Positions 24,274-61,847 of a DNA stretch of 64,000 bases are shown here, in pieces. The position numbers were made by a program, and so were the translations under genes. Below the pieces are notes generated by a model. It had not been told where the DNA came from and ran no database searches. It worked only from the letters and a program-made list of their open reading frames with translations. Each line of letters starts with the position of its first letter. Position 1 is the stretch's first letter. Source of the DNA: Methanolinea sp. (GTDB lineage: Archaea; Halobacteriota; Methanomicrobia; Methanomicrobiales; Methanospirillaceae); the NCBI GenBank assembly GCA_029907345.1, contig JARYMB010000006.1:35829-99828 (forward strand). Reading direction: 5' to 3'.

Positions 24274-24632
24274 CGGAGTGGGAGGAGTAAGCCCCCTTCT
24301 GTTCGGTGCGGCATTCAGCTCATGCGCCATACCCGGGCGGGCAACTGAGCAGCCCACGTGCCCTGTTCTGGCTTGCACCCGCAGGGATTCGCCGTTTCAT
24401 CGTGTCCTGCCCTTCTGCGTCAGCGACCAGGGAAGGATCCAATCAGGGACCTCCCCCGGGTTACCCCGGAACCGGGATTCAGTCGCGTCATTGCCGGGGG
24501 CAGGCCGTGTCGTTTCTGTGCCATTGCCGTGACTCTCGCCACCCGTACTTGCGTAACGGCTGCGCGCTCAGCAGGTGGGGGGACTTTCCTCAGCGGCAGT
24601 ATCTGCCACCGTCGGCCGCACTCTCCCTCTCC
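24274..24632 (-). ncRNA. rnpB: RNase P RNA (archaeal type A)
   Basis: Minus strand contains the CR-I core GAGGAAAGTCCCC (from 24591), ACAGAAACGAC, GGGTGCAAGCC, and 3' core ACAGAAGGGGGCTTACTCC. Ends GAGTG/CACTC pair. TATA-like tatataatg upstream on the minus strand (about 24651-24659). Confidence 0.88.
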
Positions 24633-51455: not shown

Positions 51456-51540
51456 GCCGGGGTAGTCTAGTCCGGAAAGGCGGTGGCCTTGAAAGCCACT
51501 GGTGCCTGGCACCTCAAGAGTTCAAATCTCTTCCCCGGCG
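51456..51540 (+). tRNA. tRNA-Ser (UGA)
   Basis: gccgggg...ccccggc acceptor, anticodon loop cTTGAaa with TGA, long variable arm, T-loop ttcaaat. Confidence 0.93.
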
Positions 51541-52667: not shown

Positions 52668-52898
52668 ATGTGTATTGCTGTTCCTGCAGAGGTAATCGAG
52701 ATCAGGGAAGGAAATATCGGCCTTGTGGACTACGGGGATCTGCAGCACGAAGTCCGCCTCGACCTCGTGGACGTCAAAGTCGGTGACTTTGTCCTGGTTC
52801 ACGTTGGATTTGCCATCCAGAAGATGTCGCGCGAAGAGGGACTCAAGACCCGCGAGATCTTCCGCCAGGTGTATGCCGCGATGCAGGAATCCGACTGA
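52668..52898 (+). CDS. hypC: HypC/HupF family hydrogenase assembly chaperone
   Basis: MCIAVPAEVIEIREGNIGLVDYGDLQHEVRLDLVDVKVGDFVLVHVGFAIQKM. Confidence 0.95.
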   Translation: MCIAVPAEVIEIREGNIGLVDYGDLQHEVRLDLVDVKVGDFVLVHVGFAIQKMSREEGLKTREIFRQVYAAMQESD

Positions 52899-52980
52899 AT
52901 ATCCGACTGAAATGGATAACCCTTCCCTCATTTTTCAAATCATGTCCCTTTACATGGGAATAGGGAAACAAGTTTTTTCC

Positions 52981-53235
52981 CCTCTTTGTCATTTTAAGTG
53001 GGTAAGTCAACCTCTTCATCATTTGGAAGGACAGTTACATGCAGGCATTCCAACATTTTTCAGATTTCAATTGGTTTTTCCAAAGAAGATATTGCGACTT
53101 TCCATGAAGTCATCGCGAAACCGCCGCCGGGGCGCACCTTTTAGGGGCGGCGGGACCATCCTCAACTGGGGGTGCGGGGGGCGATGCAGTTCCCCCTTGA
53201 ATTGTTCACTAACCTGCTCACAACAGCAAAGAGCC
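52981..53235 (+). repeat. dispersed intergenic element, copy 1 (structured RNA or MITE-like)
   Basis: Ends CTCTTTG (52982-52988) / CAAAGAG (53227-53233). Shares with copy 2 a core of about 70 nt: TTGGTTT...AAAGAAGA...GCGACTTTCCATGAA..ATCG.GAAACCGCCGCCGGGGCGCACCTT. Confidence 0.75.
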
Positions 53236-53318
53236 ACCTAACATAACGTATCGGGGCAATATGCTTATCTTCTTCGACAGAGAAAATAAAAAGAGATAAT
53301 GGAGAGGACGTGTTAAAA

Positions 53319-54769: not shown

Positions 54770-55024
54770 TTAGAACTTTTCCACGTCTTCGGCCTTAATG
54801 GTCTTTCTGCCTTCGGAAGCTGCTGCATTGGCTGCTTTTCTGGCAACTTCAGCGATGTATTTTTCAGTCCTGGCAACGATTGCCCTCGTGCCATCCATGC
54901 TAATCCTCTCGGCACCACTGTTCTTGGCAATCCTGACCACTGGTGCGATGGGGAGGTCAAACGAGCTGCTCTTGGTTGACTTTGCCTTCTTCTTTACAGG
55001 TGCTTTCTTGACAGCTTTTGGCAT
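54770..55024 (-). CDS. archaeal histone with Lys-rich N-terminal extension
   Basis: MPKAVKKAPVKKKAKSTKSSSFDLPIAPVVRIAKNSGAERISMDGTRAIVARTEKYIAEVARKAANAAASEGRKTIKAEDVEKF. Confidence 0.93.
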   Translation of the reverse strand: MPKAVKKAPVKKKAKSTKSSSFDLPIAPVVRIAKNSGAERISMDGTRAIVARTEKYIAEVARKAANAAASEGRKTIKAEDVEKF

Positions 55025-55233
55025 AAACACGTGCCTCAAAAAACCATTGAGATAGAAGTATTTAAATATAATTGATCCCACCAGTTCAAAACCCGATTAT
55101 ATCAATCCCGGAAAAGAACCGTGCCTCCCCAGCGGGAATACTAAAAGACCGTGGTAACGATTATTCCCTGCGGGATAAAAAACTCCGTAGTTGGTTGTTA
55201 TGACAAATTCACACCAAAAAGGGTTCTTCCAGG

Positions 55234-58105: not shown

Positions 58106-58180
58106 TGCTGCTATGGGGATTCGAACCCCAGTCGCGGGCGTGAGAGGCCCGCATGATTGGCCGGACTACACTATAGCAGC
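58106..58180 (-). tRNA. tRNA-Glu (CUC)
   Basis: Reverse complement GCTGCTATAGTGTAGTCCGGCCAATCATGCGGGCCTCTCACGCCCGCGACTGGGGTTCGAATCCCCATAGCAGCA. Confidence 0.95.
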
Positions 58181-59602: not shown

Positions 59603-59839
59603 TTGGCTCTTCGTCACATTAAAATGGGTAAGTTGCATGTGTGCACTACAGCCTTTTTTTGTCTTAATTTGGTTTATTTAAAGAAGAAACGGCGACTTTC
59701 CATGAATTTATCGTGAAACCGCCGCCGGGGCGCACCTTATTTTGGGGGAGGGGCGGGGGGACCAGCCTCATGCGGGGGTGCGGGGCGAGGCAGCCCCAAT
59801 TTGATGCTTCACTACCCAAATGGATTAGCGAAGAGCCAA
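59603..59839 (+). repeat. dispersed intergenic element, copy 2 (structured RNA or MITE-like)
   Basis: 11-bp perfect inverted ends TTGGCTCTTCG (59603-59613) / CGAAGAGCCAA (59829-59839); core shared with copy 1. Confidence 0.75.
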
Positions 59840-61772: not shown

Positions 61773-61847
61773 GGGCGTGTGGCCTAGTCTGGACAGGGCG
61801 GCAGCCTCCTAAGCTGTAGGTCGGGGGTTCAAATCCCTCCACGCCCG
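61773..61847 (+). tRNA. tRNA-Arg (CCU)
   Basis: GGGCGTGTGGCCTAGTCTGGACAGGGCGGCAGCCTCCTAAGCTGTAGGTCGGGGGTTCAAATCCCTCCACGCCCG. Confidence 0.95.

Follow-up and report, generated by a model that had tools for sequence, protein, structure and literature searches.

A probable ISL3-family MITE in an archaeal genome and a G/C-rich palindrome that recurs in several types of mobile elements

The window, i.e., the whole stretch of 64,000 nucleotides of Methanolinea sp. analyzed here, contains two gaps, one next to hypC and the other between the genes of a DRG GTPase and a DJ-1-like protein, in which the initial annotation had noticed homologous non-coding sequence in the same orientation. The alignment of 52981-53235 with 59605-59837 bears this out (74% identity over 190 bp, E 7e-28), and the approximately nine differences in about 70 nt that had been counted by eye are exactly nine, in the stretches beginning at 53071 and 59669. 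The annotation was also right that neither gap is spanned by a plausible protein: the sole long frame (52723-53241) is an out-of-frame overlap of hypC. The limits proposed initially were near-exact: copy 1 ends at 53235, as given, and its terminal repeat begins at 52980, while copy 2 had to be corrected from 59603-59839 to 59605-59837. Not noticed initially were the inverted repeats at the termini, some 30 additional genomic copies and, in copy 1, a second sequence resembling the left end (52980-53009), which precedes 53010. The coordinates of the features are given in Table 1.

Table 1. Features of the two homologous intergenic elements and other features of the window
Feature	Coordinates	Strand	Evidence
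Copy 1, very probably an old ISL3-type MITE	52980..53235	+	alignment of ~30 copies, own-genome search
Outer left terminal repeat CCCTCTTTGTCATTTTAAGTGGGTAAGT, copy 1	52980..53007	+	own-genome matches
Inner left end ACCTCTTCATCATTTGGAAG, copy 1, aligned to the left ends of the remaining copies	53010..53029	+	alignment
H1 module GAAA-CCGCCGCCGGGGCGCACCTTTTAGGGGCGGCGG-NNNN-ATCC, copy 1	53117..53163 (palindrome 53121-53153)	+	also found in further genera and types of element
H2, second G/C-rich hairpin, degraded in copy 1	53172..53200	+	fold
Right terminal inverted repeat, copy 1, ending GCAAAGAGCC	53211..53235	+	alignment, duplication analysis
Copy 2, putative ISL3-type MITE between the DRG GTPase and DJ-1-like genes	59605..59837	+	alignment
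H1 module, copy 2, 3' arm changed by an insertion and a substitution	59719..59760	+	alignment
Archaeal RNase P RNA	24276-24631	minus	Rfam, 182.5 bits
Archaeal histone-like small gene	54770-55081	minus	103 aa ORF
Three tRNA genes	51456-51540, 58106-58180, 61773-61847		Rfam

The search for further copies, suggested at the outset, was performed in the organism's own genome (1.86 Mb, 61 contigs) and returned 37 matches, which correspond to about 30 separate copies (E 1e-31 to 1e-9); two more were found in later searches. The best copies are 224 bp long, and five of them are mutually 99-100% identical. The element is therefore multicopy and short, and it carries no gene. From left to right it consists of a left end, an A/T-rich stretch, a G/C-rich core with a hairpin designated H1, a second G/C-rich hairpin (H2) and a right end ...TTACCCACTCAGATTAGCGAAGAGCC. 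In the aligned copies the left end reads [C/G]CCTCTTC[G/A]TCATTTTAAGTGGGTAAGT, although MAFFT aligns the decayed copies with some uncertainty towards the ends. The right end, which reads GGCTCTTCGCTAATCTGAGTGGGTAA inward, repeats the left one in inverted and imperfect form; the repeats are about 26 bp long and share CTCTTCG and AGTGGGTAA. Copy 2 has the ends GGCTCTTCG...CGAAGAGCC. Copy 1, with its left end doubled, occupies about 256 bp, of which 53010-53235 are the standard element, and its outer left repeat is 96% identical over 27 bp to the end of an ISL3 insertion sequence of the same genome (locus L031, 429-455). Such a tandem doubling of the left end was observed in one more copy (L018). 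Copy 1 is an old copy, the second end of which probably came from another insertion or from recombination. No intact target duplication was found for copy 1 or copy 2.

As for the other copies, perfect 8-bp direct repeats (e.g., TTCAATCT, ATCAAAGC, AAATCTTC, AAAAAATT) flank eight of them in one exact register, and three more have matches at seven of eight positions in the same register; random draws from the same flanks gave chance expectations per site of 4.5e-5 for 8/8 and 6.5e-4 for at least 7/8. An empty site was found for the copy L013, which in its own genome has GTTAATTT on each side of the element: the close relative G003 has a single GTTAATTC within the uninterrupted ...AGGTTAATTCTGCCC... 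The orthologous gap of G003 also lacks copy 2, the adjoining GTPase gene being 99% identical. Copy 1 is likewise absent from the corresponding gap of that genome, the remainder of which is not alignable, and for the copy L011 the match of the flank in G003 ends about 200 bp before the insertion point. The target duplications together with the empty site indicate that the element is a DNA transposon.

The only match to the ISL3 transposase (PF01610) in the genome is located at the start of contig C59, where it is cut by the assembly. The downstream end of this insertion sequence, read inward, is CCCTCTTCGTCATTTTAAGTGGGTAAGTTGAA, and the copies match it at 93-100% identity over their first 27-33 bp, the young ones at 96-100% over about 30 bp; a second end of an insertion sequence begins contig C36 (L029) and is 98.8% identical over 81 bp. 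No complete ISL3 element is present among the 61 contigs of this assembly, which contain its fragments only, while the relative G023 possesses a complete one with the ends GGCTCTTCGTCAGTTTGAGTGGGTA / GGCTCTTCGTCGTTTCAAGTGGGTAAGT and an 8-bp duplication TCCAGATT. Since both the ends of the element and the 8-bp duplications around several of its copies match those of ISL3 insertion sequences, the sequence in the window is very probably an ageing copy of an ISL3-family MITE. Thus, of the two explanations offered in the initial annotation, that of a small non-autonomous mobile element is upheld by the terminal inverted repeats, the 8-bp target duplications, the empty site and the matching ISL3 insertion sequence, and the match with an IS family removes, by the reasoning of that annotation, the novelty of the element itself.

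We presume, judging from the shared ends, that complete insertion sequences at other genomic sites encode the ISL3 transposase that recognizes the terminal repeats of the MITE and moves it in trans. The autonomous ISL3 partner would carry the ends CCCTCTTCGTC/GGCTCTTCG. Insertion occurs mostly at A/T-rich intergenic sites, with duplication of 8 bp. The MITE resembles the ISL3 insertion sequences (the full one of G023 and the fragment in its own genome) in the ends GGCTCTTCGTC...GTGGGTAAGT and in the 8-bp duplication; unlike them, it lacks a transposase gene, and its interior, which is unrelated to theirs, should therefore be of other origin. Resemblance to the partner in the ends alone is frequent among archaeal MITEs (PMC3852290). 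The same study describes a MITE of ISMac21 (ISL3 family) in Methanosarcina acetivorans, 179 bp long and present in six copies, with inverted repeats of 22 bp and direct repeats of 7 bp (PMC3852290, Table 4). It likewise has ISL3 ends, lacks genes and resides in a methanogen, but, by its description, differs from the element discussed here, which is 224 bp long, occurs in about 30 copies, produces 8-bp duplications and contains H1 inside. A target duplication of 8 bp is also shared with the ISL3-type transposon Tn7546, which has the inverted repeat GGGTCTTCGGA (PMC9782665). The phage and plasmid collections yielded no match, and no report of the H1 palindrome or of MITEs in these archaea was found in the literature library searched. 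The kind of element is already known, and this particular ISL3 MITE is a routine and apparently undescribed one, useful for annotation and as a mark of recent movement between sister species.

The H1 palindrome would matter more than the MITE itself. This conserved palindrome of 31 bases, with its flanks (T)GAW-CCGCCGC[C/G]GGGGCG(N)CCCTTCGGGGGCGGCGG-NNNN-ATC, is the best-preserved part of the decayed copies: the mean identities to a young copy, taken over 17 decayed copies from the same genome, are 0.87 and 0.79 for the H1 halves versus 0.45-0.75 elsewhere, a difference that is partly a selection effect of similarity-based searching. Of 199 genomes of the class, 58 contain the core, and all but one of these (57) belong to the window's own family; a model of H1 alone matched 26 of 397 genomes of the phylum, 24 of them in the own family and the remaining two each in a different family of the order. 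Judging from gene content and genome sizes, these organisms are probably methanogens of the order Methanomicrobiales.

Within these genomes H1 is carried by elements of different kinds. ISL3-type MITEs with H1 occur in several genera. In G008 it is contained in a 299-bp MITE with the ends GGGTATAGTG, which is present in four identical copies at different sites (L153-L156, with ends GGGTATAGTGACA...). One group of IS256-type (Mutator-type) elements (PF00872, E 2e-105) bears H1 in its 3' tail; in G008, G010, and G011 the palindrome lies antisense to the transposase match, 28-37 bp beyond it. The same context was found in G028, and G026 has adjacent matches. An archaeal histone-like gene of G011 is apparently interrupted at its 3' end by the H1-bearing element of this type (L068, contig C23, ~1-370), which apparently replaces its last codons. 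These elements share with the MITE the same H1 downstream of, in their case, a transposase gene; they differ from it in the transposase family and in the ends (GGTAGTGTAAGGAA), and most relatives of the H1-bearing IS256-type element lack H1. Further carriers are the approximately 250-bp repeats of G152, which have ATGAAAATCG close to either end, and intergenic clusters in G024, where H1 accompanies another palindrome. Altogether, grouping of 141 modules by their flanks gave several unrelated families and many singletons. In G019 the flanks of the intact H1 are almost all unrelated, and ISL3-like ends are present in only some cases. In most genomes the sequence type of H1 tracks the host genus more than the carrier: nearly all modules of genus g5, including one in an ISL3-type MITE, read CCGCCGCGGGGGC, while outside this genus they mostly read CCGCCGCCGGGGC. 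Exceptions are G001, G004, and an IS256-type element of G010.

The same short sequence in elements of different transposase families, kept amid the decay of its carriers, suggests either a small mobile unit or a host function exploited by transposons; H1 may bind a host factor, act as a barrier at the level of RNA or transcription, or be a mobile unit. Of these we tentatively favor a recognition site of a DNA- or RNA-binding host factor or a barrier of transcription or RNA against read-through. Our more specific proposal is tentative and, in our own estimate, has less than an even chance of being correct: H1 would be a host-tuned module taken up independently by transposons of several unrelated kinds within one archaeal family and kept because a host factor acts on it.

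A narrower reading, in which H1 is a transcription terminator or insulator shielding mobile elements from read-through transcription, seems to us rather unlikely, even if it ranks first among the alternatives. The position of H1 shortly behind the transposase match, antisense to it, in one IS256-type group and the very stable G/C stem agree with such a function, as does the location of the copies, which lie mostly between genes, the neighboring genes (predicted by a simple ORF rule) being convergent in 21 cases versus divergent in eight. This excess of convergent pairs is, however, also expected from selection against promoter damage, if insertions near promoters are lost, and the orientation of the copies relative to genes has no clear bias (16 on the same strand versus 11). 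Moreover, in the flanks of many copies the stem is followed on neither strand by a T-tract, the sequence NNNN-ATC standing there instead, which disfavors an intrinsic terminator, and a terminator would not need so exact a sequence.

Bacterial REP/BIME palindromes, which are moved by RAYT (Y1) transposases, are similar to H1 in being short, abundant, intergenic, and at times clustered with other palindromes. If H1 were such a palindrome, spread by its own RAYT-type Y1 transposase and present in mobile elements by chance, its conserved 5' TGAW and 3' ATC, the BIME-like clusters of G024 and the multitude of element contexts would be accounted for. Yet the Y1_Tnp domain (PF01797) was found in none of the 18 genomes searched, the high-copy ones included, while five control genomes were positive; in addition, H1 resides within DDE-type elements, and it was never seen with a target duplication of its own. 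We consider this origin of H1 improbable, REP elements fitting the palindrome poorly in view of the lack of Y1 transposases in the genomes tested, just as intrinsic terminators do in view of the missing T-tract.

The other explanation offered initially for the whole element was a dispersed, uncharacterized family of structured non-coding RNA that acts as RNA. In its favor, the fold of an entire young element is far more stable than that of shuffled sequences (z -6.2), and in H2 most pairs are retained, with some two-sided changes. The inverted ends account in part, however, for the fold of the young copy, and the core of the window copy hardly exceeds the expectation from chance (z -1.4). Screening against Rfam, which had been recommended as a check, left the element unmatched at both gathering and relaxed thresholds. 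RNAalifold predicted for 43 core sequences a structure of only five pairs with a covariation term of -0.22 kcal/mol. When the H1+H2 structure was imposed by name, 87% of the cells were paired; the pairs of H1 are nearly invariant, being kept because its sequence does not vary, and the two-sided changes, which fall mostly in H2, were equally frequent in a control with the partner columns slid. What is conserved is thus the primary sequence. The complementary segments reported for copy 1 do exist (CCGCCGCC at 53121-53128 and GGCGGCGG at 53146-53153), but the pseudoknot built on them is not supported, as its 3' arm is broken in copy 2 (GGGGCGGGGGG) and there are no compensatory changes in its favor. 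Given that the target duplications and the empty site point to a DNA transposon, we regard a functional RNA family as very improbable. Chance similarity or convergence of low-complexity sequence, which the G/C-rich core might bring to mind, is ruled out for practical purposes by the alignments, i.e., by the E-values across the approximately 30 copies, the exact identity of 31 nt in different genera and the extension of the homology into the A/T-rich flanks and ends.

Some other palindromes were observed in the same surroundings. The loci L109-L123 of G152 and L171 of G024 represent extensive families of palindromic, G/C-rich repeats between genes, some of them in tandem with a spacing of about 165-280 bp, which include palindromes other than H1 (CCCCGCCTCAGGGCCCCTCCGGGGCACGGCGGGG; CTCCCGGGGCTTCGCCCCGCCGCTGCGGCG). 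The IS256-type relatives of the H1-bearing elements, L232-L235 (G144, G194, G191, and G124), have at the corresponding 3' position different G/C-rich hairpins, such as GGGGGAGGGACAAGCCTCCCCC, as though this site were regularly occupied by a hairpin.
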